Source of the DNA: an uncultured Thermogutta sp.
GTDB taxonomy: Bacteria; Planctomycetota; Planctomycetia; Pirellulales; Thermoguttaceae
Direction: 5' to 3'
Length of the DNA: 64,000 nucleotides
Assembly: GCA_937128505.1 (NCBI GenBank)
Contig: CAKZMM010000019.1
Span: forward strand, 1-64,000
In this document: in pieces, positions 16,201 through 33,357 of the stretch
Numbering within the stretch: position 1 is the first letter of the stretch
How the letters are laid out: each line of letters opens with the position of its first letter
Notes under the pieces: model-generated
Seen by the model: the letters and a program-made list of their open reading frames with translations, nothing else
What the model was told of the DNA's origin: nothing
The model's database searches: none
Translations under genes and position numbers: made by a program

Positions 16201-18251
16201 GCAATACACGCCGCGACATACTCCCCCACGCTATGCCCCAAGATATAATCCGGCTCGATACCCCACGAAAGCCACAGCTTGGCCAACGCGTATTCCAGCG
16301 CAAAAAGTGCCGGCTGAGTGTACAAAGTTTCATCGAGTAGGGAATGAAGAGGCACCCCTTCACTTTGAGAATGTTTTGCTCCGAGTGCCGCGCTACTGGG
16401 TGGCTCTTCTGACTGAGGATATAAAACATCGAGCAGTCCGACCGGAAGATGCGGCCGCAGGATAGCGTCACATTGCTCCAAAGCTTCCCGAAATGGAGGG
16501 CATGTCTCCCATAACTTACGGCCCATTCCCACGTACTGCGAACCCTGACCGGTGAAAAGAAAAACGATTTTGGGACGCCCCAGCAGCTTCACTTGACCCG
16601 ATTTGACCCCCGGCTGTCGCTTGCCCGTTAGGTAGTCATCTAACCGCCTGGCCATCTGTGCCCGCGAGGCAGCGCAAATTGCAAGACGTTGATTGAAATG
16701 ATTGCGGCCGGAGTTGGCGGTATAGCAGACATTGGGCAAATCTTCGTCCGGGCAATTCTCCAAATACTCCCGATAGCGGCGTGCTAAGTGTTGAAGACTG
16801 CTCGAGCTTTTGGCACTGAGCGTCAATAAGTGAAAAGAGCGATCTCGGTCCACCACCTTCACTTTACGCGGACCGACTTCCTCCACGATAACGTGTACAT
16901 TCGTGCCGCCAAAACCGAAGGAGCTTACCCCCGCAATTCGCCTGCCGGCCAAAGGTTCCCATTCCATCGGTTCTCGGGGGATAATCAGCCGGGTTCCTTC
17001 CAAGCGCACATTGGGATTCAACTCCCTGAGATGCAGCTGTCCAGGGATGATCTCATGGCGCATCATCAAGGCAACCTTAATCAAGCCGGCAATTCCCGAG
17101 GCGGTTTCCGTATGTCCGATATTCGCTTTCACGGAGGTCAACCAGCAGGGGTACTCCCCCTGTTGACTGCGACGAAAGAGCCGTTGCAGCCCCTGGATTT
17201 CAATGGGATCGCCCAGCGGGGTACCCGTCCCATGAGCCTCGATGTAGCTGACCTGAGAAGCCTCCAAACCCGCATTGGCCAACGCTGCCCGGATTACCTC
17301 GTGCTGCGAACGGCTATTGGGGGCCGTAATTCCCGATGTTTTCCCGTCCTGGTTGGCCGCACTGCCGCGGATAACTGCCCAAACATGATCCTCGTCGCGT
17401 ATGGCATCCGTGAGACGCTTTAGGACGATGACTCCGCACCCCTCGCCGCGAACGTATCCGTCAGCGGCTGCATCGAAGGGCCGACACTTACCCGTGGGGG
17501 ATAACATGCGGGCCTTCGAAAAGGCGATCATGACCTCCGGGGAAAGGATGAGGTTCACCCCTCCCACCAGTGCCATATCGGACTCCCGTGCCCGCAAGCT
17601 CTGAACGGCAAGGTGCACGGCAAGCAGCGCCGAGGAGCAAGCCGTATCTACCGAAAGGCTAGGACCCCGAAGGTCCAAAACGTATGAGATTCGATTTGCC
17701 GCGATACTGAGGGCGTTGCCCGTCCCGGCGTGCGCATCAATGTACTCGAGGTGTTTCTCGAAGTGAGTGGGAATTTTCGAATAGTCAGTCGCGCCGATCC
17801 CCACGAAGACCCCGGTTTTTGAGCCGGCAAGTCTTTCCGGCGCGACACCCGCATTTTCCAAAGCTTCCCAAGCTACCTCCAACAGGACCCTTTGCTGGGG
17901 GTCCATTCGCGCCGCTTCCCGCGGCGAAATGCCGAAAAAGACCGGATCGAAAAGGTCCACGCCGTCGATAAATCCGCCCCAACGTGTGGACATCTTTCCG
18001 GGCTTATCGGGATCCGGGTCGTAATACGCATCGACATCCCAGCGGTCTGGGGGGATTTCGCCTGTCGCATCAACCCCTTCAAGGATAAGACGCCAATAAC
18101 TTTGGAGATCCGGAGCTTGGGGAAAGCGGCAGGCCATGCCCACTAAGGCGATCGGCTCGCTTACATCGGTTAAGCTCTGGGCCAATCGCTGCTCGAGAAG
18201 ACGACGCTGTGCGGGTGATAGCTTTGCCAACCGGTCAAACAATTCCCCCAT
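10251..18251 (-). CDS. one-module fully reducing type I polyketide synthase (KS-AT-DH-psiKR-ER-KR-ACP-TE)
   Basis: The protein is 2,666 aa from ATG 18251. KS (about 30-455) has DTACSSA with Cys205, EAHGTGTPLGDP and NIGHTETASG. AT (about 530-850) has GHSVGEY with Ser674 and the malonyl-type HAFH motif. DH (about 905-1190) has DHRLQGTPVVP with His977 and a later HPAWLDASLQ. A low-complexity linker and a degenerate structural KR half follow (about 1190-1600). ER (about 1630-1940) has AGAGGVGLAA near 1770. KR (about 2005-2185) has TGGLGALG and Tyr2160. ACP carries GMDSL with Ser2324. TE has GWSAGG with Ser2467. All domains look active, so each cycle should add a fully saturated C2 unit from malonyl-CoA and then release the acid or ester. 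The start lies 16 bases after the stop of the ligase gene; GTG 18332 would overlap that gene and adds nothing family-like. Confidence 0.95.
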   Translation of the reverse strand: MGELFDRLAKLSPAQRRLLEQRLAQSLTDVSEPIALVGMACRFPQAPDLQSYWRLILEGVDATGEIPPDRWDVDAYYDPDPDKPGKMSTRWGGFIDGVDLFDPVFFGISPREAARMDPQQRVLLEVAWEALENAGVAPERLAGSKTGVFVGIGATDYSKIPTHFEKHLEYIDAHAGTGNALSIAANRISYVLDLRGPSLSVDTACSSALLAVHLAVQSLRARESDMALVGGVNLILSPEVMIAFSKARMLSPTGKCRPFDAAADGYVRGEGCGVIVLKRLTDAIRDEDHVWAVIRGSAANQDGKTSGITAPNSRSQHEVIRAALANAGLEASQVSYIEAHGTGTPLGDPIEIQGLQRLFRRSQQGEYPCWLTSVKANIGHTETASGIAGLIKVALMMRHEIIPGQLHLRELNPNVRLEGTRLIIPREPMEWEPLAGRRIAGVSSFGFGGTNVHVIVEEVGPRKVKVVDRDRSFHLLTLSAKSSSSLQHLARRYREYLENCPDEDLPNVCYTANSGRNHFNQRLAICAASRAQMARRLDDYLTGKRQPGVKSGQVKLLGRPKIVFLFTGQGSQYVGMGRKLWETCPPFREALEQCDAILRPHLPVGLLDVLYPQSEEPPSSAALGAKHSQSEGVPLHSLLDETLYTQPALFALEYALAKLWLSWGIEPDYILGHSVGEYVAACIAGVFSLEDGLRLITERARLMAELPRDGMMAVIFASEEVVRPHLEGLESQVSVAAINGPTNTVISGKADLVSELAQAFEKQGINTHPLAVSHAFHSPLMDPILDTFEDFARQIPFQEPRVPIVSNVTGEFLEGIPDARYWRNHIRHAVLFAQGVECLHAQRPDVWLELGPAPILLGMARRCVSNWRGVSAPSLRKGHDDWEVLLDSFGELYLAGARIDWKAFDQYWPRKRCQLPTYPFERSRYWFEPKPRRTSLATAAKGPVVHPLLGVRVPTALPQRIYENQISQTSPAYLKDHRLQGTPVVPAAFYAEIGLAIARELFGPGKHTVEDLSLQHALFLPENAARIVQVAVSEQAVGVASFEVFSAPADATDGQLRWTLHACGRIRSEANCPDGEDLPAIDLDRFDEQVVDVKSREEFYQLMGARQLQYGPLFQGLDRLRRRRADAIAHLQPPPDVERQASDYLLHPAWLDASLQITAGVVPLGADGQYNPHTFLPTYLGQLRNYRPPHEAKFAYAVRRSPDQGPATQVVEADVFWLDSRGQVVVEIRGLRVERVGRTELESEKDRLKRLVYRVAWRDAGSVLAGGMQESNPRRASYPSETEHAVRAGTLSAHREGESSPPSESSRLGHEAPSTGGAQNLTGVWWILCDLEIAEQSEWAHHLLSHADFTDCRLVLVSPGKELKWRTLKTPKGLLDKSSNSEPSAVNRLGGSENQIDAETSQRASRLIHVTIDPGSPNHWNELESRLRATGLDRPRGVIYLWGLRTPAARMQNATFAELQRLKNIVLSGLLQVSQHLLRSSRSGGGELIIVSQGGQSVPPGEVNHSARTMRSEGDSISQRLADASRDDLPGGYSSEHVDPFQAPLWGFGRSLVLEHPELRCRLIDVDPVVPVAVGVAQLLAEIQQSDEEIQVAIRSDRRFVPRLIPAHELIREGGGTGQVPPSKGPFRVRLGKPGSFDALGFEKLERLAPTGDRVEIEVRADGLNFSDVLKALGLYPGITDPVVPLGIECAGVVTAVGEEVSRFKPGDEVLGVAPYSFASHALSAEYALVHKPSGLSFQEAATIPISFLTAYYALVWLGRLQPDERVLIHAGAGGVGLAAIQIAQHIGAEIFTTAGSEEKRKFLRSLGVSHVLDSRSLSFADEIRRITRQEGVDVVLNSLPGDAITESLRLLRAYGRFLEIGKTDIYQNRMIGLLPFQDNLSYFAIDLDRMLRQRPQLIRQLFAEIMERFAEGSYRPLPLTEFPVEQLRAAFRYMAQRKNIGKIVISLSKVSEKQSSLGVATSHGKGATPEHPAPTASTIEARTTPGSAVVVPSELGIGKGVDEKDFAIRPDATYLITGGLGALGLKVAEWLVRKGARHLALMARRSPGQSTREILQAMEQQGARFYLMQVDVSDHDAVARELAKRRGDFPPLRGVIHAAGVLADGLLPQMNKEQLLAPIRPKVDGAWNLHDLTKDDPLDFFIMFSSVAGVLGSPGQTNYAAANAFLDALAVARQAAGLPAISICWGPWAEVGMAIDSGAQRIAARGMRLLSPSNGLALLEALLQQPRADVVVIDADWARVRQVLGGRKMPLLDELSGEQAAPEVAEQSGTVDHEFLATLRSRPMEERKGLLVDYFGKELARIMGLEAGGIDPDQPLSALGMDSLMAMELKNNLEARLAFNLPMAAFVESPSLSTLADLAAKLLTEQSADVLRTETGQKAAWSPIVPLGKGDGRPPLFCIHPLGGDFRCYQDLAAELSEHWPICALRARGAEGVLEPHHSLDEMIEEYWSAIRSYQPTGPYFLAGWSAGGIYAFALARRLLADGADLGRLIFFDTPVPDIYEGVDLGNEARFLCDLVQFTNHFTPAPIQLSYDELRNLQKEAVYLAALEQAKKQGAVPAGASPEFIRRLCEVAREHVRFVLHYELRPIEAEILMFLPAVRGKLAELSGKRLDADLGWGKVSGQRFRIIEVPGDHFSMMNRPNVTELAQHLLNELEQALRHVSLAQR

Positions 18252-18267
18252 GCGTCCGAAAATCCCT

Positions 18268-20652
18268 TTAAGAGTGGTGCTGCGAGATCCTATTGCCGGA
18301 TGTATTGGGTGTGGCGGAGACTTCACCGTCACCCAAGCGTTCTACCTCCGCCAACAAGTCCTCAAACTCCTTCGTTGCCGACAAAGGCTCTGCCGTGGGT
18401 TCACAGAGTTCCTCCTCAGGTACACGCCCAGCGGCCATCGCAGCAAGATACTCAGCCAAGCTGGCAGGCGTGGGATAATTCCAAACCAATGTCGGTGTCA
18501 ATTGCAAATTCAATGCTTGCTCCAATTCTTCGGCCAACTCCACCGCTGCCAGCGAGTCCAGACCATACTCCGCAAATGGTCGAAAGCGATCAACCTCTTC
18601 CGGGGCAACCCCCGCTCTGTCCACCAACCAACTGAGCAAGACCTCCTCAATTTGTTGAGCCAAACGCCGAACGCCGGCCTCTGAGAAATCCCGTGCCGAA
18701 GCGAGTAGTTTCGTCAGTTTTCCGTTTCTCCCATTCCCCGAGGAGGAAAGCCTTCCCGCGGCCAGCTCCTGGCGCGATGAACCCTCACGTCTCTCTCCGT
18801 TTCCCGAGGACGTCAATTGGCGCGGGGGAGCTTCTATACCTGTAACCCGTTCCCTCGTTTGGGGCCCCGAGGCTGCCTCCGTTTTTACGTTCTTTACCCA
18901 TTCAGCAATCACTTTGAGTTGACCATTCAGGTACCACTCACGGCAAAGGTTTCTTTGAATTTTGCCACTCGTGGTTCGCGGCAGGCTGGCCTGGCGAATT
19001 AGAACTACCGCATGTAATTCGACTTCATGCTCCTCAGCAATTAGGCGACGAATTTCTCGTATTACCTCAGCCAAATCGAGATGGCGATAATGTCGATCAA
19101 CTTCCTGAACAACAACCAACCTCTCTTGACCGTCGATATCTACTGCGAAAGCCGCGCCTGCACTCGGCAGCAACGCCGGATGGGCGTGTTGTACCGTTAA
19201 CTCGAGATCCTGAGGATAGAGATTTCGGCCTCGAATTATGATTACTTCTTTTATTCGTCCGGTAACGTAAAGCTCCCCATTAAGGATGAATCCTAGGTCC
19301 CCGGTACGGAGATATGGACCTTCCCCCGTGGGGCTCAACTGAGCGCGGAAGATCCTTTCGTTCTCCTCTTCCCGGTTCCAGTAACCAACCGCAACGTTTT
19401 CACCTTTGAGCCAGATCTCGCCAACTTGCCCAGGGCCAACGCGTTCCCCAGTTTCCGCGTTTACGATCGCTATCTCCTGCCGCAAAAGCCCAGAGCCGCA
19501 ACCCACCAACGGTTGCGAGTGGCTTTTTGCGCTTTCATCCACAGGCTCCACTCGATGGTTTGCCAGCGCTTCTCGGCTCACATACAAGACCGCAGGCTTC
19601 CGCGGGCCAATTCCCCCGGAAGCAAGCAGCGTTGCCTCCGCCAATCCATAACACGGATACAACGCCGCGGGGTTAAAACCGCAGGGAGCAAAAGCACGCG
19701 CGAAGTTTTCCAAGGTCTCCGCTCGAATGGGTTCCGCCCCACAAAATGCCACTCGCCAGCAGCTTAGATCCAGTTTCTCCTTTTCCTCGTCCGTGATCTT
19801 TCGGACGCACAAGTCGTACGAGAAGTTTGGGCCACCACTCACTAGGGCCCGATTCTCCGAAATCGCTTCTAGCCAGCGGACCGGGCGTTGCAGGAAGCTG
19901 GTGGGTGACATCAAAACGCTGTGGCCCCCCGTGTAGAGTGCCATCAAGATCCCGCCGATCAACCCCATATCGTGATACGCGGGCAACCAGAATACGCCTA
20001 CCCCAGGTTGCTCCGGAACCTTGACCCACGGAATATCAAACCCGCACCGAATCATCTCCAGATTGGCCATTAGGTTGCGGTGCGAGATCATGACCCCCTT
20101 AGGTTCGCTTGTAGAGCCGGAGGTGTACTGCAAGAAGGCGAGGTCCTCCGGCTTAAGCTCCGGTCGCTCCCAAGCTTGCGCGAACTCAGGAGCGATCGAA
20201 TCGATGGTAATCCATCGCAGCGCACCTAACTCAGGGGCGACCCGGGCTATATCTAGGGTTGTTAGGGTTTGCGAGGTCGTCAGAGCTACAGACGCCCCGC
20301 AGTCTTTTGCGATGGCGGTCAACCGGGGCATGGGCCGTTTTGGCTTAGGGTAGGTAGCAGGAACAGCCAGAACTCCTGCACAGATGCAGCCGAAAAAGGC
20401 TGCCACAAAGTCAAGCCCCGGCGGAAAAACCAAAAGTACTCTGTCTAACGGCCGTGCAAAACGCTGCAAATGTCCGGCGATGGTCTTCGCACGCTCATAA
20501 AGTTCGCCAAACGTTAGGTGCGAATCAGCCTCATTCTCGAAACAGAAGCGGTAAACCTCTCTGTCTGGTCGGGCCGAGGCTTGCCATTCCAGAACCTCGA
20601 GCAACGTCCTCAGGTTGGCAGGACCACCGGAAGCTACGAATGCTTGCGACAT
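18268..20652 (-). CDS. fatty acyl-AMP ligase fused to an acyl carrier protein (FAAL-ACP)
   Basis: The 794-aa protein has an adenylate-forming domain over about residues 1-580 and a carrier domain near the C-terminus. Adenylation motifs include QYTSGSTSEPKGVMISH, the YPCYGLAEATL region and YLRTGDLGF followed by GRIKEVII. The pattern around ISHRNLMANLEMI and VFWLPAYHDMGLIGG is typical of FAALs, which make acyl-AMP and pass the acyl group to an ACP rather than to CoA. The C-terminal ACP has YGLDSLAAVEL with Ser700 as the phosphopantetheine site. A low-complexity linker (about 585-650) joins the two. It sits directly upstream of the PKS and almost certainly supplies its fatty acyl starter. Its promoter should lie in the long spacer above 20652. 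Confidence 0.93.
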   Translation of the reverse strand: MSQAFVASGGPANLRTLLEVLEWQASARPDREVYRFCFENEADSHLTFGELYERAKTIAGHLQRFARPLDRVLLVFPPGLDFVAAFFGCICAGVLAVPATYPKPKRPMPRLTAIAKDCGASVALTTSQTLTTLDIARVAPELGALRWITIDSIAPEFAQAWERPELKPEDLAFLQYTSGSTSEPKGVMISHRNLMANLEMIRCGFDIPWVKVPEQPGVGVFWLPAYHDMGLIGGILMALYTGGHSVLMSPTSFLQRPVRWLEAISENRALVSGGPNFSYDLCVRKITDEEKEKLDLSCWRVAFCGAEPIRAETLENFARAFAPCGFNPAALYPCYGLAEATLLASGGIGPRKPAVLYVSREALANHRVEPVDESAKSHSQPLVGCGSGLLRQEIAIVNAETGERVGPGQVGEIWLKGENVAVGYWNREEENERIFRAQLSPTGEGPYLRTGDLGFILNGELYVTGRIKEVIIIRGRNLYPQDLELTVQHAHPALLPSAGAAFAVDIDGQERLVVVQEVDRHYRHLDLAEVIREIRRLIAEEHEVELHAVVLIRQASLPRTTSGKIQRNLCREWYLNGQLKVIAEWVKNVKTEAASGPQTRERVTGIEAPPRQLTSSGNGERREGSSRQELAAGRLSSSGNGRNGKLTKLLASARDFSEAGVRRLAQQIEEVLLSWLVDRAGVAPEEVDRFRPFAEYGLDSLAAVELAEELEQALNLQLTPTLVWNYPTPASLAEYLAAMAAGRVPEEELCEPTAEPLSATKEFEDLLAEVERLGDGEVSATPNTSGNRISQHHS

Positions 20653-21136
20653 CAGCGAGGCTTCCTACGGATTCGGGTTTTAGCCGTCGATTGGCCGACA
20701 AAAATATTCAACCTTCAGGGGGGAGTACAACTACTTGAACACGATCCCAACCGTCACCAGTGTAGGCCGTTCGATGCAATAAAAGATGTCGCTCCTCGCA
20801 CTTAAAAGTATCAGTATCGAGGTATGGCGCGGATTAAGCTTTCCAACCCTCCCATGGTCGCCGCTCGAATCCACATTACCCAGCGACTGGTCGGCGATTC
20901 GTCTGAAAACAAACTACAAGGTATTTCGCTAAACTACACATTTTAACTTGGTTAGGTTAAATGGATAGAGCAAGCCAAAAACGGGCTTTTTGTGGGAAAA
21001 TAGAGATTTTATCGGCGGCCTCACCTTTAGGCAAACACCCAGCGAGCATCCGAACGTTCGGTGCATGTCTTATTGCGACATCTCCCTGGTGCAATTTCCC
21101 AAACCTCGGATTCGTCTTAACATGCTAGTAGTTCGA

Positions 21137-21163
21137 TTTTTCTTAATCCTTTTTTCTTAATCC
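21137..21163. repeat. 13/14-bp tandem duplication, TTTTTCTTAATCC
   Basis: TTTTTCTTAATCC (21137-21149) is followed by TTTTTTCTTAATCC (21150-21163). The same CTTAATC core recurs at 21469-21507. Confidence 0.75.
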
Positions 21164-21468
21164 TTGAAAGAGCTACATTTTTCGAAGAAATAGCAGACCC
21201 ACGTTCATCAAAGATTATTATCGCTAGAATTTAAATAAATTTAAGACGGCAAGTTATATTTTGCACTCTAAGCAAAATTTTTTGTTACCTTTTTTGGGGG
21301 GACTTTTATTACCAACTTTTTGGAGGGATTAAATAAATTTGTAGCGATACTTTTCTGGGCTTTTTGTCTCCTCTTGAGTGGAGCACTATGGAAAGCTTCG
21401 GCGGATCGCTCAATGTGCATCGCTAAAGTTAGTGGTTGCGGGGATAAAAGCGGGCAACTCAGTTAACC

Positions 21469-21507
21469 TTTCTTGTCTTAATCCTGCATTTCTTGCCTTA
21501 ATCTGCA
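21469..21507. repeat. 20-bp tandem duplication with CTTAATC core
   Basis: TTTCTTGTCTTAATCCTGCA (21469-21488) is followed by TTTCTTGCCTTAATCTGCA (21489-21507), which differs by one substitution and one deleted base. Confidence 0.8.
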
Positions 21508-21660
21508 TTTTCCGACATTTGCTTTGGTAGGGTTGAGCTTAACTCCGACTCGGCTAAACTCTGAGATTGAATTGCTGAAAGTAAACTAATAGCATGCATA
21601 TACTGACTTTTTATTTCGAGCATGCTTTCGCGGGACGAAAACCGTCGCAAAATCCCCCTC

Positions 21661-21684
21661 TATTTGTGCGATTATTTGTGCGAT
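21661..21684. repeat. 12-bp perfect tandem duplication
   Basis: TATTTGTGCGAT occurs twice without a gap, at 21661-21672 and 21673-21684. Confidence 0.85.
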
Positions 21685-22209
21685 CCAACAGCGAAGCAGC
21701 CTTCCATGGTATGGTGCAGCCGAACTCTCCGCTCTTAACCCACTCGTGTATCCCGTTTTTCGGCGTTCCGCGATTAATGACTCCGCTAAGGTAACCCCTT
21801 GTTTACGTCAAATTATTTGGGCTCGATTTGGGTTTTTCGAAATTGTCCGCGTTCATTACCAAAAAGTCTCAGCGCGACTCACTTCGGGCTTTGGTGGCCG
21901 CGGGCAACCTGACCTTAGAGGCTGAGGCGCAAATAACGTTCCAATTCCCTTCGATTTGCGCAGTTCTTCCTATACATCTAAATAGCTATCATTATAGTCG
22001 ACTATTTTCGCGGCGTGCCTCCTGTTGGCATTTCCCCCTTTTAGTCTTAATGCGGCCAAGAGTTATCCGGACTTTGGCGAAGTCTCGGAAAATTCGTCAG
22101 TAATGGACACGCTCTGTGTAATGTGGAGAATTTGGCGTAATCGCAAAAAAAGAAACTTTAAGACAACCGGCAAAACATGCTTACCGCTGATGCTTTCTAA
22201 GGAGAGTAC

Positions 22210-23004
22210 GTGATGACTGGCGGCGGGGCCGAGTGTATGCGCGAGCTGCGCCTGTGGTTCCCCTGGCTTCGCGAGGATTTAACGGACGTTCGGCTCTGGC
22301 TAATTTGCTTCAATTATGCGGGGGGCGGCACCTGGATTTTCGGGCGATGGCAACAGGCGTTTCCCCGGGAAATTCAGGTCCTTCCGGCCATGCTCCCCGG
22401 TCGGGAGTCCCGATTTTCCGAAAAGCCGTACGAGTCGCTCGAATCGCTAAGCTCAGTATTAGCTAAGCTGGTTGCGGAGTTGACGCGCGATACTCCGTAT
22501 GCAATTTTTGGTCACAGTTTTGGGGGTTATTTGGGATACGAGCTGATCAGGCTTCTGGTGAAAGAGGGGTATAAGCCTCCGGTTTGTTTTTTCGCGAGTG
22601 GTTGCCGAGCCCCTCATTTAACGCGATTTTGCTCCGAGATGCATCATCTCCCCGATCCGGAGTTCAAAGAGGCGGTGGAAAAGCGTTTCGGTGCTTTACC
22701 GAAAGTAATCGCACGGGATCCCGTGCTCCTTCCGATCTATTTGCGGTCGATACGCGCAGATTTGGCGATCCTGGAGCGCTATGCCTATACCGCCGGCAAG
22801 CCGCTGCCGTGTCCAATATTTGCCCTCGGCGCTTCAGACGATCTGGAGGTTCCGGTGCCCGATTTGATCGCTTGGGTGGAACACACTCGCGAAAAGTTTA
22901 TCGCGGAATTATTTTCGGGGGGGCATTTTTTCATCAGGTTGCGGCAAGACGAAGTGCTTCGAGTTCTATCGCGACGCTTGAGCTTGTGGGTGGAAACCTG
23001 GTAG
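22210..23004 (+). CDS. type II thioesterase
   Basis: This 264-aa alpha/beta hydrolase is of the GrsT/RifR type. It has the early FNYAGGGTWIFGRWQ and MLPGRESRF motifs, the nucleophile elbow GHSFGGYLGYEL with Ser103, an Asp in GASDDLEVP and the late His in SGGHFFIRL. Type II thioesterases hydrolyse stalled or mis-primed acyl groups from carrier proteins of PKS/NRPS lines. The start is GTG 22210, or ATG 22213, after AAGGAGAG. It stands opposite the FAAL-PKS arm across the divergent spacer, so it probably serves that PKS. Confidence 0.92.
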   Translation: MMTGGGAECMRELRLWFPWLREDLTDVRLWLICFNYAGGGTWIFGRWQQAFPREIQVLPAMLPGRESRFSEKPYESLESLSSVLAKLVAELTRDTPYAIFGHSFGGYLGYELIRLLVKEGYKPPVCFFASGCRAPHLTRFCSEMHHLPDPEFKEAVEKRFGALPKVIARDPVLLPIYLRSIRADLAILERYAYTAGKPLPCPIFALGASDDLEVPVPDLIAWVEHTREKFIAELFSGGHFFIRLRQDEVLRVLSRRLSLWVETW

Positions 23005-23173
23005 CGTGTTGTCGCACCAAGGGAATAGAGGCGATTGCCTTAATTCCGTAGTGCCTTCATTTGCTGGAAATGCTTTTCCTTGAAATGTTTTGGAGTAATC
23101 GGGGAGGATTAGCAACCCTCGGCCCTGAATCGCTTGGGGCTCTATTAGAGCCTACCCGTTTATTTGTTTTTCC

Positions 23174-24058
23174 ATGAGTAGTTGGCCCGATCCATCGGTA
23201 TCTAATGCAAACAAGCCACCTTTACCAATTGGTGTGGTTCATCTTTGGAGGTGGCGGACAGACAACGTGTGCCGTGATCGACTCTGCATAGAGATCCTTT
23301 CGCCAGACGAACGAGAGCGCTTATCCCGACTGGGCACCGAGCGGCAGCAGCTACGATTTTGCGTTGCGCGATTGGGGCTGCGGAGTTTGCTGAGCGGGTA
23401 TGCCGGAGTTCCGCCCGGCGCTTTGCGGTTCGAATACGATTCCGCAGGAAAGCCGCGTATTTCCCCCAATCATGGGGAGGAGATTCGGTTCAACCTGTCT
23501 CATTCGGGGGACTGGGTAGTCTTGGCACTTGTGAGAGGGGCGGAGATCGGCGTTGATCTGGAACTTATCCGGCAGGTGCCCACATTGATTTCTTTGGCAG
23601 AGCGTTTTTTTTCGGAAAGGGAGTTTAGCATCCTGAACAGTAGGGAGGGAAAGGATCGCGAGATTCTTTTTTTCCGATTATGGACCTGCAAAGAGGCCGT
23701 GTTGAAAGCCATCGGAAAGGGACTAACTTATCCGTTGGAGAAGGTCGAAGTGCCTTGGTTATGTTGCTCGGAGGTTTGTGTAGCTCATTCGCCGATAGAG
23801 ACCATCCTGGATCGAGCCGGTGATAAGGATGGTCCATTGGTCCTAGATAGAGTTCACCAAATACAAATCGATGAGGTAGGGCTTGATCCGATGGTAAGTA
23901 GCCGGTGGTGGGTTGTTGAATTTATCCCGGCTTTTGGTTATATAGGGGCGTTGGCAATAGACCGGCAGCCGGCGCAAGTCGAGTTTTTTACTTGGAACGG
24001 TTTAACCTCCGCTCACACGGATGGTGGGGCGTCGACGTCGACCCAACCAATCGCGTAG
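23174..24058 (+). CDS. 4'-phosphopantetheinyl transferase, Sfp/Gsp superfamily
   Basis: The 294-aa protein has the Sfp-type hallmark motifs: GVDLELI (metal-binding D128 and E130) and WTCKEAVLKAIGKGL (W170, K173, E174), plus FNLSHSGDWV upstream. It moves the phosphopantetheine arm of CoA onto carrier-protein serines, here most likely Ser2324 of the PKS and Ser700 of the ligase. It is about 170 bp downstream of the type II thioesterase gene on the same strand. The last residues (Ser/Thr/Ala-rich, after FFTWNGL) coincide with a 28-bp direct repeat that spans the stop codon, so the tail may be a recent addition. Confidence 0.92.
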   Translation: MSSWPDPSVSNANKPPLPIGVVHLWRWRTDNVCRDRLCIEILSPDERERLSRLGTERQQLRFCVARLGLRSLLSGYAGVPPGALRFEYDSAGKPRISPNHGEEIRFNLSHSGDWVVLALVRGAEIGVDLELIRQVPTLISLAERFFSEREFSILNSREGKDREILFFRLWTCKEAVLKAIGKGLTYPLEKVEVPWLCCSEVCVAHSPIETILDRAGDKDGPLVLDRVHQIQIDEVGLDPMVSSRWWVVEFIPAFGYIGALAIDRQPAQVEFFTWNGLTSAHTDGGASTSTQPIA

Positions 24059-26547: not shown

Positions 26548-27095
26548 AAGCCTTGTTCCGAGTTTTATTGGGCGCCCTCGCGAAGCTCATCAGGAAATCA
26601 TCGGGCCGGGCCAACCTCGTTCGCTTTGAACCGAGAATTTTTTGGTGACGGCGGCGAAACGAAGCGATCACACTGTGGCTCGCGGCTTTCTACGATAGGC
26701 AAATAGGCTTGCCTATTCTGCCGGCCTTAAGATCGCTATGAACGCTTCTTTAGAGACGCTTCTTTAGGAAGTTTTCAACTATTGTTTTTTGGTCTCAGTT
26801 TACCTTGCAATTTTGCTCGCCGATTTTGGGTAGTTCTGTTCCGCCGGCCGATACCCCCTTGTCCGAGCTAGCCTTTTTACTTTGGGATGGAATCCTTGGA
26901 TCAACTCGCAAAATGCGATTTGACAATTGGAAAAGTTGACCTAGGCTTCATTTCAGAGGGAGCAAGTGGAAGCGACCTCTGGGAGAAAACGGATTGGGTG
27001 GTGGCCGGAAGCTCTTGTCGGACGCCTATCGATCTTATCGCCAGGCGTTGTGGCTTCGGCTGCCGCAAAAGGCCTGCAGCCTCTCTTCCTCGATA
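26548..27095. other. spacer upstream of the riboswitch
   Basis: No gene was seen. It contains an inverted repeat ATAGGCAA/TTGCCTAT (26695-26702 and 26709-26716) without a T-run, and the 12-bp repeat at 26742-26767. The promoter of the riboswitch-pilin transcript should lie near its right end. Confidence 0.45.
26742..26767. repeat. 12-bp perfect direct repeat, 14-bp period
   Basis: ACGCTTCTTTAG occurs at 26742-26753 and 26756-26767. Confidence 0.8.
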
Positions 27096-27170
27096 AAGGC
27101 AAACCGGTCGTAAGGCCGGGACGCAAAGCCAAGGGCCAGCAGGAAATGGCTGGTAGCCTGGCTGCCGAAA
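27096..27170 (+). promoter_or_regulatory. cyclic di-GMP-I (GEMM-I) riboswitch
   Basis: The aptamer core fits the GEMM-I consensus closely. AGGCAAACC opens the P2 arm and CCGGUC-GUAA-GGCCGG forms P2 with a GNRA-type tetraloop. The hallmark GGGACGCAAAGCC follows. The second arm, GGCCAGCAGG to UGGCUGG, comes next, and GUAGCCUGGCUGCCGA closes the junction and P1. In the family, c-di-GMP binds at the three-way junction and changes transcription or translation of the gene behind it. Here the next gene, about 200 bp on, is the Flp pilin. I could not identify the expression platform. Confidence rests on the conserved motifs, not on folding. Confidence 0.9.
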
Positions 27171-27366
27171 GGAAGGGAGATGCACCCGGCGAGGAAAGAG
27201 GCATTGTGACGTTTGACAATCGGGAGCTGGCCGGTGCGGTGCAGGCCGACGCTCAGATGGACCGGTGGCGGGCATCGAAAGGCTCCCAAACTAGTTGCAC
27301 CTGCGTCCCGATCTCCGCCTCATTCGGTAACGGCGGGGGACGCATTATGTAAGGGGAGGTTTTTCT

Positions 27367-27552
27367 ATGAAGTGGTTCGCACCTGTCCGCCGTTTCCTCG
27401 CCTCTGAGGATGGCCCAACGGCCGTCGAGTACGCGGTCATGCTGGCGCTGATCGTCATCGTCTGCCTTGCGGCGATCAGTTCGCTCGGTACCGCAACCCG
27501 TGAGACATTCCAGGGTGTGACCGACGCCATTAGCGGGAGCGGCGGCCCATAG
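27367..27552 (+). CDS. flp: Flp-type pilin (Flp/Fap family)
   Basis: This 61-aa prepilin has a short leader ending SEDG, then PTAVEYAVMLALIVIVCLAAI. Cleavage after Gly16 leaves Glu at +5 and Tyr at +6, the Flp signature, followed by the single hydrophobic assembly helix. It is the major subunit of the type IVb Tad pilus. GGGGAGG lies just upstream of the ATG. It follows the c-di-GMP riboswitch and precedes prepilin peptidase, TadE and CpaB genes on the same strand, so expression of the pilus is probably tied to c-di-GMP. Confidence 0.95.
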   Translation: MKWFAPVRRFLASEDGPTAVEYAVMLALIVIVCLAAISSLGTATRETFQGVTDAISGSGGP

Positions 27553-27780
27553 TCGGTATTCGTCGCTTGCGCGGGCTGCGGCGTGAATTTGCTTTCCCGA
27601 TCGCATGCCCGGCCGACCCATTGGATCGTCCATCTGCCTCCTGGGCCCTCGTCGGGAGTCTTCGACGGGGGCCGATTTGTTTTCGGTTATCTGCATACCC
27701 GCGACCAGCTTCCGCATTTGTTGTAATGATCCGGCCTTCTTAGGGCATACAGACCAGCTTGCCCCCGGTTACAGGCTCCC

Positions 27781-28496: not shown

Positions 28497-28720
28497 GCAT
28501 CCTCGCGACGCAGTGGCTCATTGAAATTGCGATATTTTTCGGCACTGCATTTTGGCTTTTGTTTTTGGTTCCAAACTCGGGGTGAGTTTGCCTTGGAGGA
28601 AGGCATCAATCGCCTGCCCCCAGCAGAGTGCTCTAGGATCAGGGGCGGATCATCGATTGCCGCTGAAGACAGTCAAGAAACACGTAGCCTAACCATTAAG
28701 TGTCAAAGAGGCAAATGGCC

Positions 28721-29299
28721 ATGTTGAGTGCTGCGGAATTGTCGCTCGGTGAACATGTTACCCACCTGGTGAAACTGGTGGGCTGGATCGTGACGGTATT
28801 CCTGGTGGTAGCTGCGCTTATTGACGGGCTTAAGCTGCGAGTGCCGAATTGGCTTACTTTCTCTATGGTCTTAAGTGGCTGGATGGCGGGCGGTCTACTG
28901 TTCGGCTGGGAAGGGTTGGGAGCCAGCCTCCTAGGAACGGCCGTCGGGCTAGGGCTTTTGCTACCCCTTTACGCCATAGGCGGCATGGGCGCAGGGGACG
29001 TAAAGCTGTTAGCCGGAGTGGGGGCGTGGATTGGCGCCGCAGGGACTGTTTGGGGCTTCGTCTTTTCCGCCCTTATCGGGGGTGTACTCGCGTTTGTGAT
29101 AGCCTCCCTGAAAAAGGGATTTTGGCAACATCAGCGGGAGCTTTTGGCGTTATTCACAGAGGTCATTACCCTACGCAACCCTGCAGTCCTTGCGGCTCAA
29201 GCGGCAGAGCGCAAACCACACGCGGTGCTTTTACCTTACGGGATCCCTATCGCTATCGGCTGCATTGGCTACTTCTTGATCCAGGGGATGCTTGTATGA
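28721..29299 (+). CDS. tadV: prepilin peptidase (TadV/CpaA, A24 aspartic protease)
   Basis: This 192-aa polytopic membrane protein has the A24 catalytic pair: Asp in ALIDGLKLRVPNWLT and Asp in GGMGAGDVKLLAG, the GxGD motif of the family. It cleaves the leader of Flp prepilin and pseudopilins such as TadE. The ATG at 28721 has AGAGG nine bases upstream; GTG 28700 and ATG 28715 are alternatives. Its stop overlaps the TadE start by four bases (ATGA), so the two are translationally coupled. A loop of about 45 residues before the last helix is larger than in minimal TadV proteins. Confidence 0.92.
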   Translation: MLSAAELSLGEHVTHLVKLVGWIVTVFLVVAALIDGLKLRVPNWLTFSMVLSGWMAGGLLFGWEGLGASLLGTAVGLGLLLPLYAIGGMGAGDVKLLAGVGAWIGAAGTVWGFVFSALIGGVLAFVIASLKKGFWQHQRELLALFTEVITLRNPAVLAAQAAERKPHAVLLPYGIPIAIGCIGYFLIQGMLV

Positions 29300-29937
29300 A
29301 GCACGCACGATTCCTCTCAACGCTAGGGATGCGGTTTTCGATGGTTAAAGATTCTGCCATTTCTCCCAATCATTCGTACCACACTCATCGGGATCATACG
29401 AGCAATCCTTACGCACAAAGGATCGAGCCTAAAAGGACAGCGGTCTTGGAGCCGCAAAAAACGAGTTCGTCCGAGCTCTCTTTTGTAGTCGCTTATTCTC
29501 GAGGAAATTCCGTGACATCCGGCGGGGTGCGGGGGTCTTTCTTGCGGGCCCGGTCTGGAGCAGCGGTGGTGGAGTTTGCCATCGTGGCCCCACTCTTTTT
29601 CTTACTGGTGTTAGGAATCATCGAATTCGGCCGCATGGTGATGGTGCAGCAAGTTCTGACTAATGCATCCCGCGAAGGAGCTCGCGTGGCGGTGCTCGAT
29701 AATGTCACCCTTGAAGATGTGCTTGCCCGCACCAATATGCTGCTTGTGTCAGCAGGAGTTCAGGGAGCGACCATCGCCGTTTCGCCAAATCCGCCATCTT
29801 CGGCAGGATACGGCGAGCCTGTGACGGTGACGGTCAGGGTTCCGTTTAGCCGAGTGAGTTGGTTGCCAACACCGATGTATTTGGGAGATTTCACACTGCA
29901 GGCTACCACCGTGATGCGTCGAGAAACCGTGCAATAG
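29296..29937 (+). CDS. TadE-like pseudopilin
   Basis: The 213-aa protein has a TadE core: ARSGAAVVEFAIVAPLFF, a hydrophobic helix, then EFGRMVMVQQVLTNASREGAR and a C-terminal beta part. Cleavage by the upstream peptidase is expected before AAVVEF. The N-terminal region ahead of the pilin-like motif is unusually long (about 85 residues, polar, His/Arg-rich), so either the true start is further in or there is an added cytoplasmic segment. It overlaps the TadV gene by ATGA. In Tad systems TadE-like minor pseudopilins are needed for pilus assembly. Confidence 0.88.
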   Translation: MKHARFLSTLGMRFSMVKDSAISPNHSYHTHRDHTSNPYAQRIEPKRTAVLEPQKTSSSELSFVVAYSRGNSVTSGGVRGSFLRARSGAAVVEFAIVAPLFFLLVLGIIEFGRMVMVQQVLTNASREGARVAVLDNVTLEDVLARTNMLLVSAGVQGATIAVSPNPPSSAGYGEPVTVTVRVPFSRVSWLPTPMYLGDFTLQATTVMRRETVQ

Positions 29938-30312
29938 GGCCGTCTTGGTGTGACGATGCGGCGGGAACAAACCAAAAAATTTCCCGCGGGCGATAAGGTC
30001 AAGAATTGCCGCGGACCTTGCCCGTGTGTTAGTCGGCTCGGCGATCTGGAATGCCGTATCACATGGGCTAAGAGCCAAACCCTAGATTGCGGCGGTTGCA
30101 AACGTGGGCCGAGTAATTCCGTACCCAGCTTAGAAGTCATAAGCCAACAGCCTAGAAATCATAAACCAACGCGCTAAAAGTCATAAGCCAGAGGTTATTC
30201 ACCCACAAGTGATTCTCGCTGGTTCATCAGTTTCCTCGGCCAGCAAGTCTGTCGGCCGGGAGGCAAGAAGAAAGTTGAACCGGAACGAGAAAGGACGATG
30301 AGGAGCTCGAGC
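29938..30312. other. spacer between tadE-like and cpaB genes
   Basis: This spacer holds the three-copy repeat at 30129-30194. There is no gene. A Shine-Dalgarno AGGAG at 30301-30305 precedes the cpaB ATG at 30313. Confidence 0.5.
30129..30194. repeat. three tandem copies of a 21-23-bp unit
   Basis: The units are CTTAGAAGTCATAAGCCAAC.. (30129), CCTAGAAATCATAAACCAAC.. (30151) and CTAAAAGTCATAAGCCAGAGG (30174). The shared core is TAGAAGTCATAAGCCA with scattered changes. Confidence 0.8.
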
Positions 30313-31518
30313 ATGCGGGCAAAATCGGTAGTTTTACTCGTCATTGCATTGGGCTGCGGCCTCGTTGCCGCCCTGGGCGTTACTCAGGTGATGTCCCGAC
30401 GAACCGCCGCTGCGGCGGCCCCTACGATGGAGTTTACACCGATTATTGTAGCGGCCACGGACATTCCCATGGGTGACCTCATTATGCCGGAAATGATTCG
30501 CGCCGAACCGTGGCCAAAACATAAAGTCCCTCCAAGCGCTATTTCAAAACTTGAGAACGTGGAAGGGCGTCGCCCGAAAACCAAGCTCTATGCCAATACG
30601 CCGATCTTGGAAACCCAGCTTCTGGGCACGGGAGAGTCCGCTGCCAATCCCACGGAACACATCCCGCCGGGATACCGGGTCGTTTCGGTCCAAGTGGACG
30701 AGGTGGCCGGTGCAGGACGCTTGATCCGCCCCGGAGACCGGGTCGATCTGCTCGTATTCATGCAGCGAAATCCGAACCGGGGTATCCTGGAAACGGCAAC
30801 ACGCACAGTGCTCCAGGATGTAAAAGTTTTTGCCGTCGGCGACCAATTCGACCTCCAGCAGGCAGAGGGGAAAAAATCCATCGTTGCCCGAACCGTTTCT
30901 CTTCTTGTGACGCCGCGGCAAGCCGAGGTTTTGATGTTGGCGACGGAACTTGGATCGATTCGCCTTTCGTTGCGGAGCTACGCGGACATGCAGGTGGTGG
31001 ATCTTCCCGGCTCCTCGCCTGATGAGCTCCATGCCCGCACCGCTGCTGCTGATATGGCGAGCTCCCGAGGTAGTTCACTGGCTCCCGGAACGCCCTCGCC
31101 ACAGTCCGATGGCTCAGAAGCTTTTCTCCAATACCTGGCGGCTCAACAGGCCAAAGCTTCGGGCCAATCGCCGGAGCAATCTTCCACGCGGCAGCAATGG
31201 GTGATGCGGCTGATTCAGGGGCCGCAGTTGTCTCAGGTGGTCATGACGGCCACCAGCACACATTCAGGGACTGCCGGGCAAGGGGTGCTTCAATTGTGGG
31301 AGGTTCAGGAAGGAACTCCTTCCGCTACTGGTACGGAGGTGGTTTCTGATGTTGCACATCCGGTCCCAGCTATGGCAGACGAATTAACTGCTGAAAGTGC
31401 TCCGGCAAATCCACAAACCTCACCAGCGGCTGAGCCCGTTGCCGCAGAAGACCCACATCAGGCACCGGAGCCTGATGACGCACGCCCGGACGAAGACTCG
31501 CAGAACCGTTCGATCTAG
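30313..31518 (+). CDS. cpaB: Flp pilus assembly protein CpaB/RcpC
   Basis: The 401-aa protein opens MRAKSVVLLVIALGCGLVAALG, one membrane anchor typical of CpaB. An SAF-like domain (about 45-110, VVAATDIPMGDLIMPEMI) follows, then the RcpC/CpaB core (PPGYRVVSVQVDEVAG..RPGDRVDLLV..TVLQDVKVFAVG..TLLVTPRQAEVL-like segments). The last about 160 residues are low-complexity and acidic, longer than in many CpaB proteins. CpaB is a periplasmic partner of the outer-membrane Tad secretin. The ATG at 30313 is preferred because AGGAG lies seven bases before it; ATG 30298 is the alternative. The secretin (cpaC), ATPase (tadA) and tadB/tadC genes are not in this window. Confidence 0.93.
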   Translation: MRAKSVVLLVIALGCGLVAALGVTQVMSRRTAAAAAPTMEFTPIIVAATDIPMGDLIMPEMIRAEPWPKHKVPPSAISKLENVEGRRPKTKLYANTPILETQLLGTGESAANPTEHIPPGYRVVSVQVDEVAGAGRLIRPGDRVDLLVFMQRNPNRGILETATRTVLQDVKVFAVGDQFDLQQAEGKKSIVARTVSLLVTPRQAEVLMLATELGSIRLSLRSYADMQVVDLPGSSPDELHARTAAADMASSRGSSLAPGTPSPQSDGSEAFLQYLAAQQAKASGQSPEQSSTRQQWVMRLIQGPQLSQVVMTATSTHSGTAGQGVLQLWEVQEGTPSATGTEVVSDVAHPVPAMADELTAESAPANPQTSPAAEPVAAEDPHQAPEPDDARPDEDSQNRSI

Positions 31519-31992: not shown

Positions 31993-33357
31993 ATGGCTGG
32001 CAAAGTCTTCATAGGTGTGGATATTGGGGGAACCAAAATCCAGGCAAGCCTAATCAGCGAAACGGGGAAGGTGCTTGAAGCCGAACGAGAAAAAACCCCG
32101 CGAAACGGCGGACCGGAGGCCGTTTGCCAAACTCTTGAACATGTAATCGACAGCCTTTTAAAAAGTTCTCAGTTCGACCTGCGCGATGTCACGGCTTTGG
32201 GCGTTGGCGTACCGGGGGTTGTGAATCCGAAAACGGGGGAAGTGATCGTTACTCCGAATATGAGTTTGGCTCCATTCCCCTTGGGCCAGTGGCTTCGTGA
32301 TCGCTTTAGAATTCCTGCCGTTGTGGGGAACGACTGTAATCTGGGCACCTTCGGAGAATGTTGGCTTGGCGCGGGCCGCGGGTCGAGAAGTGCTTTCGGC
32401 ATCTTCGTGGGCACCGGGATCGGAGGCGGCTTCGTGGCGAAAGGAAAGATCTGGTATGGTGCTCGGATGGCCGCCGCCGAAGTGGGCCACATTGTTATGC
32501 AGATGGGCGGTCCGCTTTGCAACTGCGGGAACCGCGGGTGTCTGGAGGCTTTGGCCAGCCGTACGGCGATCGAACGGCAGCTTCGCGAAGCGGTCGCTGC
32601 AGGCCGCGGCACGGTCCTGACCGAATGGCTCACGGAAACCGATCAATTGATCCGATCAAGTCTGCTACGCGATGCCTTGGAGGCTGACGATGCTTTGGTG
32701 AAGGAGACTTTAGAAAAAGCTGCGGAAGTGATCGGCCATGCTTGTTTGACCATTCGACACCTTTTTGATCCGGAGGTGATCATTTTGGGTGGCGGTGTGA
32801 TGGAGGCTTGTGGGCATTTTATGCTGCCGATCATTCAGCAGGTAGTGGCCGACGATAAACTTCCGGGAGCTTTTCGTGCAGGCAAACTTGTGGCTTCTCT
32901 TCTGCAGGACAATGCAGTGGTTTTAGGTGCGGCGGCTTTGGCCGGCCGCGTTGCAAGGTTGAAAAACTTTAAGCGGCGAGCATTTCGTCCGGCAAATTAT
33001 CCCGTGTTGGCTGCCGTCAAATTCGGCATGATTTCAATAGGTGATCGGACGTATACATCCGACGTTTATATTTTCCCTGATGGCCGTGTTAAGAAGCGCA
33101 AGAAAGGCTTGGCTCGGAAAACTACGGGTAGCTCGCACCTAATTGGCGTGGAAGAGATCATGCAGGTGTGCAAATGGGCACCCGATGTGCTTTTCGTCGG
33201 TACGGGCCATGCCTCGTGTGCGCGGCTAACGCCGGAAGCCAACGAATGGCTTGCACGAATGCAAGTCGAAGTAAGGCCAATCGCAACCCCCGACCTGCCC
33301 GTAGCCTTTAATCAATGCGAAGGTCGAAAGGCAGCAATTATTCACGTCACATGCTAA
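31993..33357 (+). CDS. ROK-family sugar kinase fused to an Mth938-like domain
   Basis: Residues 1-325 form a ROK kinase. The ATP site is DIGGTK near residue 10, the probable catalytic Asp is D114 in VGNDCN, and GTGIGGG follows. The zinc motif is H166 with C176, C178 and C183 (LCNCGNRGCLEA). ROK enzymes phosphorylate glucose or amino sugars, or act as regulators; no DNA-binding domain is present, so a kinase is likely. Residues about 345-454 match the Mth938/DUF498 (NDUFAF3-like) fold: ISIGDRTYTSDVYIFPDG, VLFVGTGHASCARL and VAFNQCEGRKAAIIHVTC. No stop separates the two parts, so this is a true fusion, which I do not know from other kinases. The function of the second domain is unknown. Confidence 0.88.
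   Translation: MAGKVFIGVDIGGTKIQASLISETGKVLEAEREKTPRNGGPEAVCQTLEHVIDSLLKSSQFDLRDVTALGVGVPGVVNPKTGEVIVTPNMSLAPFPLGQWLRDRFRIPAVVGNDCNLGTFGECWLGAGRGSRSAFGIFVGTGIGGGFVAKGKIWYGARMAAAEVGHIVMQMGGPLCNCGNRGCLEALASRTAIERQLREAVAAGRGTVLTEWLTETDQLIRSSLLRDALEADDALVKETLEKAAEVIGHACLTIRHLFDPEVIILGGGVMEACGHFMLPIIQQVVADDKLPGAFRAGKLVASLLQDNAVVLGAAALAGRVARLKNFKRRAFRPANYPVLAAVKFGMISIGDRTYTSDVYIFPDGRVKKRKKGLARKTTGSSHLIGVEEIMQVCKWAPDVLFVGTGHASCARLTPEANEWLARMQVEVRPIATPDLPVAFNQCEGRKAAIIHVTC

Follow-up and report, generated by a model that had tools for sequence, protein, structure and literature searches.

The leader of the flp pilin gene in the investigated window, i.e. the whole stretch of 64,000 nucleotides that was analysed, is probably a riboswitch for c-di-GMP whose expression platform is unusual: the aptamer is enclosed by a pseudoknot, and a helix designated PB would act as the switch. 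We file the aptamer as a member of c-di-GMP-I and the leader as a whole as a new variant. In the proposed mechanism, loop 1 of an H-type pseudoknot accommodates the class-I aptamer as an insert, and helix PA (GGCCUG/CAGGCC) of this pseudoknot crosses the PD/PE stem that bears PF. Without ligand, the helix PB (CCUCG/CGAGG plus GCCUC/GAGGC), which adjoins PA, would hold the 5' strand of the aptamer helix P1; binding of c-di-GMP would allow P1 (CAUCC/GGAUG type) to form, break PB and alter the pseudoknot, and the altered fold of the leader would change the amount of Flp pilin. Our guess is that c-di-GMP raises it.

The pilin gene and its neighbors are organized as follows:

27353 to 27359, plus strand: Shine-Dalgarno (SD) sequence GGGGAGG, read from the sequence
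27367 to 27552, plus strand: Flp prepilin gene, 61 amino acids, ATG start (PF04964, 36.9 bits)
27644 to 27673, plus strand: terminator-like hairpin 3' of flp with a 13-pair stem and a T-rich tail
28700 to 29299, plus strand: CpaA-like prepilin peptidase (PF01478)
28849 to 29937, plus strand: open frame whose C-terminal part encodes a TadE-like protein (PF07811)
30298 to 31518, plus strand: CpaB/RcpC-like Flp pilus assembly protein (Pfam profile search)

The 61-codon frame exceeds the cut-off of the Flp_Fap profile (32.2 bits) and contains the prepilin-like motif EDGPTAVEYAVMLALI. The ATG is located 196 nt from the end of the aptamer, in agreement with the original prediction of a pilin gene about 200 bp downstream. 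A coding function of the leader itself (frame 26966-27352) was rejected, because the frame has no Pfam match and indels in relatives speak against it. The words TTGACA and TAGGCT, separated by 16 nucleotides (26920-26947), resemble by eye the promoter words that precede flp in the genomes G002 and G005, and in G005 such words are found just 5' of GGCCTG; the pair at 26920-26947 is absent from the output of the promoter scan. Elsewhere in the window, a polyketide-type cluster (10251-24058) comprises an AMP-ligase with carrier domain, a separate thioesterase, a phosphopantetheinyl transferase and a polyketide synthase of 2693 amino acids with KS, AT, DH, zinc-dehydrogenase, KR, carrier and thioesterase domains, and a ROK-family protein (31993-33357) has a C-terminal part with weak similarity to DUF498 (31.1 bits vs. 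a cut-off of 33).

The aptamer is the single element of the window with an Rfam match above the gathering threshold:

27089 to 27170, plus strand: c-di-GMP-I aptamer with P1 core, P2 with GUAA loop, and P3 (RF03167, 76.6 bits; RF01051, 76.2 bits)

In the cmscan search, the full-length match to RF03167 (c-di-GMP-I-GGC) has an E-value of 2e-16 at a cut-off of 59 bits, and RF01051 (c-di-GMP-I) matches at 27088-27169 with a cut-off of 35 bits. The covariance-model check that had been proposed together with the prediction of a c-di-GMP-I riboswitch at this site thus places the element above the thresholds of two families. All four core words that had been quoted for a nearly canonical aptamer are found in the window, and the location was correct; the assumed start at 27096 is seven bases late relative to the Rfam start.

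The distribution of the aptamer was investigated in 60 genomes sampled from the own genome, genus, family and order (RF03167 at E<=0.001), 39 of which harbor a total of 56 sites. A Flp_Fap gene lies downstream of 35 of these sites in 33 genomes, with 150-409 nt to the nearest match, so that the cis-regulatory position in front of a surface or motility gene recurs well beyond the window. The lack of such a conserved motif upstream of related pilins had been named as the finding that would speak against the original prediction. Seen from the pilins, an aptamer is located within 1500 nt upstream of 41 of the 95 Flp_Fap matches and none was detected for the other 54; the same-genus genome G002 has flp with neither an aptamer nor a domain match. 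Tad or TadE-like domains were found downstream of 14 and none downstream of five of the 21 non-flp sites, 19 of which were covered by a domain scan of hand-chosen downstream frames. The genome of the window itself harbors a second aptamer copy (C187:92493-92593, 66.1 bits) 791 nt before the gene of a TadG-like Tad/vWA protein of 902 amino acids, with a short ORF in between. The order-wide sample contains an aptamer match in 121 of 246 genomes, and a 20-base pattern of the flp-type aptamer retrieved 21 database records, namely 18 from planctomycetes (nine from Pirellulales or its families) and three from other phyla. The earlier view of an aptamer in front of flp is hence correct, and its reading as a control of the pilin RNA by c-di-GMP is supported as a probable one; the view is also incomplete, since the second copy, the pseudoknot and the helix competing with P1 were missing from it.

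An alignment of the flp leaders revealed conservation 5' as well as 3' of the aptamer, and GGCCUG on its 5' side is complementary to CAGGCC 169 nt downstream (helix PA). The elements of the pseudoknot in the window are:

27071 to 27078, plus strand: PA 5' strand GGCCTGCA, perfect 8-nt complement of 27240-27247; the flanking pairs covary
27220 to 27289, plus strand: pseudoknot domain, stems PD, PE and PF around the PA 3' strand (models R1 and R2)
27222 to 27227, plus strand: PD 5' strand GGGAGC (fold, family covariation)
27233 to 27237, plus strand: PE 5' strand GGTGC (family alignment, fold; the constrained minimum free energy (MFE) fold of the window pairs the region differently)
27240 to 27247, plus strand: PA 3' strand TGCAGGCC in the PD/PE bulge (PA pairing tests, fold)
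27248 to 27270, plus strand: region of the PF hairpin, which is weak in the window (family alignment)
27272 to 27276, plus strand: PE 3' strand GCATC (family alignment, fold)
27282 to 27287, plus strand: PD 3' strand GCTCCC (fold, family covariation)

Pairing of PA was counted in 40 distinct leaders with an upstream GCCTG, excluding L008 and the eroded leader of G024, and compared with 20,000 shuffles that ignore the kinship of the leaders. Altogether 271 of 280 cells are paired (shuffled mean 260.7, maximum 269), but the anchor words predetermine most of the PA core; at the two flanking pairs, which they leave free, 71 of 80 cells are paired and no shuffle reached this value (mean 60.7, maximum 68). 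In register 97% of the cells pair, compared with at most 43% when the strands are slid by one to three columns. Sequence variants with retained pairing are TGCCTGC/GCAGGCA in G003 and AGCCTG/CAGGCT in G042, G044 and G059. PA crosses PD/PE, and the whole structure therefore represents an H-type pseudoknot. The 5' element could also fold into a hairpin by itself (GGC CUGNN GCC); this local structure, which was seen first and may have another role, was set aside in favor of the long-range pairings PA and PB.

The stems around the PA 3' strand were recognized in 32 leaders folded with the CAGG anchor kept unpaired (set by hand for L009, L010, L022 and L023), most of which share by eye PD, an internal loop, PE, a 5' bulge with CAGGCC, and PF. 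RNAalifold predicted no pairs on the 30-sequence MAFFT alignment A1, which leaves out L008 (same leader as L007) and L034 (domain cut short) and looks misaligned. The covariance model R1 was built from 14 leaders, including the window, that were hand-picked because they align well (alignment A2), and its structure was written by hand after a RNAalifold run that held CAGGCC unpaired. R1 scores 51.2 bits in the window, which is one of its seeds, and this is the sole match of the genome at E<=1; among 76 loci it recovers 25 leaders at E<0.02, 11 of them non-seeds including one that is identical to a seed. At the same threshold it misses 12 of the 35 flp-class aptamer leaders, three of which lack a CAGG anchor within 56-199 nt 3' of the aptamer. 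In the 24 leaders realigned as A4, which omits 12 of 36 sources unreached by R1 and is fitted to the hand-written structure so that its counts lean towards it, 88.5% of the 470 PD/PE/PF cells are paired and 17 of the 20 pairs exhibit two-sided changes (88 such cells vs. a shuffled mean of 26.9). The covariation score of the same 24 leaders is 0.572, compared with 0.257 in shuffled and 0.076-0.157 in slid controls. The window itself keeps few of the eight consensus pairs of PF, two of them G-U, and its constrained MFE fold differs there and deviates inside PD.

No plus-strand family of Rfam 15 matches the domain (27190-27290) at E<=10, and no Rfam match covers it in the loci of seven leaders at E<=5. 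A chance match on the minus strand, GNAS-AS1_4 with 15.4 bits vs. a cut-off of 50, overlaps 27112-27226 including the start of the domain. A ribozyme was considered and rejected: the only ribozyme match in the leader is Twister-P5 (13.8 bits vs. a cut-off of 37.6) within the aptamer, and the strand order of the domain presumably differs from the topology of the HDV ribozyme.

The nucleotides that separate PA from the aptamer, together with the first aptamer bases (GCCUC...CCUCG), are complementary to a downstream CGAGG..GAGGC, which results in helix PB:

27079 to 27092, plus strand: PB 5' strand GCCTCTCTTCCTCG, overlapping the P1 strand of the aptamer (permutation test; MFE fold with 27190-27202)
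27081 to 27089, plus strand: 5' strand of an extended P1, CTCTCTTCC, the putative ligand-bound alternative (9 bp with 27171-27179)
27171 to 27179, plus strand: 3' strand of the extended P1, GGAAGGGAG (fold)
27190 to 27202, plus strand: PB 3' strand CGAGGAAAGAGGC (permutation test, MFE fold; similar motif in the family leaders)

PB takes the P1 strand, and both helices are thus mutually exclusive. On average, own PB partners pair more stably than swapped ones in 15 leaders from the family of the window (-18.8 vs. -16.6 kcal/mol; 5 of 10,000 permutations as low) and in 15 other leaders (-18.9 vs. -15.6 kcal/mol; 1 of 10,000). Because the partners are alike, only six of the 30 leaders have their own partner in first place. 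The PB fold is the MFE structure of the window (-59.0 kcal/mol, compared with -57.1 for a forced extended P1), and the gap between PB and P1 amounts to 8.5 when another segment is folded and just two P1 pairs are forced. Across the native sequences of the 30 leaders the PB-forced fold is predicted to be lower than the P1-forced one, with two P1 pairs forced, in 28 (median gap 6.35 kcal/mol), and free MFE folds contain PB pairs in the P1 strand of 23 leaders and P1 in one; ligand, pseudoknot and tertiary contacts do not contribute to these energies. Two other planctomycete flp leaders (L114, L116) retain the aptamer and by eye PB-like letters, but R2 does not match them at E<=0.1 and their downstream region is different.

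The pseudoknot domain also occurs without the aptamer. The model R2 detected 28 places in 27 of the 246 genomes of the order and, among 294 genomes of the phylum that include few of this order, matched only the window's genome and G026, where an aptamer site precedes flp and the domain is present as well; both sweeps used strict filters and scored few candidates per genome. Twelve of the 21 pattern-matched records match R2 (nine already in the sample; L123, L128 and L130 in addition) and nine do not, and the match of L128 is located about 1 kb away from that of the aptamer pattern. In the 13 places that were read out, the Flp motif starts 102-122 nt 3' of the domain. An aptamer is located upstream of the domain in 22 of the 28 places, and the remaining six, which have no recognizable aptamer, yielded no riboswitch in cmscan at E<=1. 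By eye, loop 1 is occupied by a short U-rich linker in G005, by a plain hairpin in G012:C156, G409 and G413, and by another stretch in G370; the flp leader L098 (G024:C103) contains the domain together with an apparently eroded aptamer (GCGCAAAGC...GTTGCCGAAAGGGTG). The flanking pairs of PA are complete in the aptamer-less leaders of G005, G012:C156 and G413, one of two is present in G409, and none in G370, whose anchor was picked by a position rule while another candidate pairs better.

Given these places with and without aptamer, the c-di-GMP sensor looks like a modular part of a larger folded RNA. A more far-reaching and tentative reading, to which we assign somewhat less than even chances, is that the flp-leader pseudoknot represents an autonomous class of regulatory RNA in Pirellulales with a function of its own, and that its loop 1 acquired or lost the c-di-GMP aptamer as a sensor module in the course of evolution. 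If this holds true, one RNA regulator would gain or lose second-messenger control through aptamer insertion. The partly failing PA flanks in two of the aptamer-less leaders and the weak PF of the window lower our confidence in this modular reading as well as in the riboswitch model.

A simpler scenario is that of a c-di-GMP-I riboswitch of the usual kind, which has a terminator or a structure covering the SD as its ordinary platform and in which the additional conserved stems are incidental. The near-canonical aptamer is in line with it, and in the same genomes a simple SD hairpin immediately follows the aptamer at many non-flp sites: by eye about 15 of the 21 show a short hairpin of the type GCAACC...GGUUGC over the SD, and TTGC follows the aptamer directly at 13 of 21 non-flp vs. 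3 of 35 flp sites. Predicted structures of this kind suggest translational control at the non-flp sites. In L003 (G000:C187) and other such sites the hairpin covers the SD of a short ORF, and several of these ORFs begin alike (MSxCxSSLAF) and then diverge. In L124 (Gemmataceae MAG) and L125 (Desulfuromonadaceae MAG), the aptamer is by eye followed by a hairpin and a T-run like a classic terminator. The SD of the window is predicted to be paired mostly with the PD-PF region (0.81; unpaired 0.18), which gives slightly more weight to the ordinary platform. However, no plus-strand terminator-like site (hairpin plus T-run) lies between 27170 and 27367, all three plus-strand sites being located 3' of flp, and the three sites of the whole stretch do not clearly exceed the number in shuffles (mean 1.6, sd 1.4); the flp leader thus has no intrinsic-terminator platform. 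SD sequestration was likewise rejected as a common mechanism, because the partners of the SD are spread over six labelled regions in partition-function folds of 31 leaders. One further structure precedes the SD in the window:

27302 to 27344, plus strand: hairpin between pseudoknot and Shine-Dalgarno (MFE fold)

The 106-nt stretch examined for this hairpin does not exceed shuffled sequences in stability (z -0.66; 44 of 200 shuffles reach the same value). The extra stems covary and also occur without aptamer, and altogether we regard the ordinary platform as improbable. With no terminator in the leader and by analogy with the non-flp sites, the control of flp would most likely be exerted at translation or mRNA stability.

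The opposite scenario regards the pseudoknot as the primary regulator, e.g. a second-ligand riboswitch, a protein-binding site or a ribozyme, with the c-di-GMP aptamer as a mere modulator. Six of 28 domain places without recognizable aptamer are in agreement with such a role, and so is the sequence of PA, which is nearly invariant beyond the needs of pairing, albeit partly fixed by the anchor words. Most aptamers and ribozymes contain invariant single-stranded bases, unlike the domain outside PA, where few were found; together with the missing plus-strand Rfam match over the domain, this makes a primary role of the pseudoknot rather unlikely, yet a stronger competitor than the ordinary platform. 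The least probable alternative, to which we give very little credit, concerns the ligand: according to the Rfam name c-di-GMP-I-GGC, whose model outscores RF01051 by 0.4 bits, the aptamer might bind a molecule other than c-di-GMP. Our reading of model and name presumes that A47G defines the GGC variant, and at the position taken as A47 the window has A (GGGACGCAAAGCC), not the G of the GGC consensus (GCAAA instead of GCGAA). The same A is found in 55 of the 56 aptamer sites including the window, the last site being unparsed, and G does not occur there in any of the 55 that were parsed. The ligand-contact letters, which we take to be positions G20, A47 and C92 of class I, correspond to the G of GGCAAACC, the first A of GCAAAGCC and the C of GCCGA. 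The G at the presumed position 20 speaks against 3',3'-cGAMP, since the corresponding GEMM-Ib riboswitches presumably carry an A there. Judged by its letters, the flp-leader aptamer is of the canonical class-I type, and c-di-GMP is likely its ligand; the genome contains four GGDEF matches, and c-di-GMP is thus probably made by the organism.

To our knowledge, little is known about the control of attachment in the planctomycete phylum. The c-di-GMP-responsive riboswitch proposed here would tie the second messenger directly to Flp/Tad pilus mRNAs of planctomycetes, and the sites in front of Tad genes amount to a Tad-pilus regulon predicted from sequence. Versions of the conserved RNA domain, which has no match in Rfam 15, with and without aptamer allow a comparison at the bench, and the competition of PB with P1 makes the switch testable. 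The genome paper of Thermogutta terrifontis lists a RF01051 match, whose gene is unnamed in section 11 of that paper (PMC5673643), so the presence of c-di-GMP-I in a planctomycete is already in print. A literature search that covered few subscription papers retrieved neither a c-di-GMP riboswitch in front of Flp pilins nor a flp-leader pseudoknot.

The flp leader shares the aptamer core, P2 with a GNRA-type loop, P3 and the canonical binding letters with c-di-GMP-I (GEMM-I, RF01051), but differs by the enclosing pseudoknot domain, the competition of PB with P1 and the lack of a terminator-like site. RF03167 (c-di-GMP-I-GGC) is the best-scoring Rfam model, but the A at position 47 sets the leader apart from it. 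The second copy in the same genome and the similar non-flp sites, often located before Tad-pilus genes, belong to the same aptamer family, whereas their SD hairpin directly follows the aptamer and R1 finds nothing at E<=1 in L003, the locus of the second copy. H-type pseudoknots serve as platforms in the preQ1-II and SAM-II riboswitches, which have crossing stems and an inserted hairpin in common with the flp leader, and no such Rfam family matches the domain. In Clostridioides difficile a c-di-GMP-II aptamer is combined with a group I ribozyme; the flp leader differs from this system by its class-I aptamer and by the lack of an above-cut-off match to any known ribozyme family, and both have in common that an aptamer is coupled to a second structured RNA.
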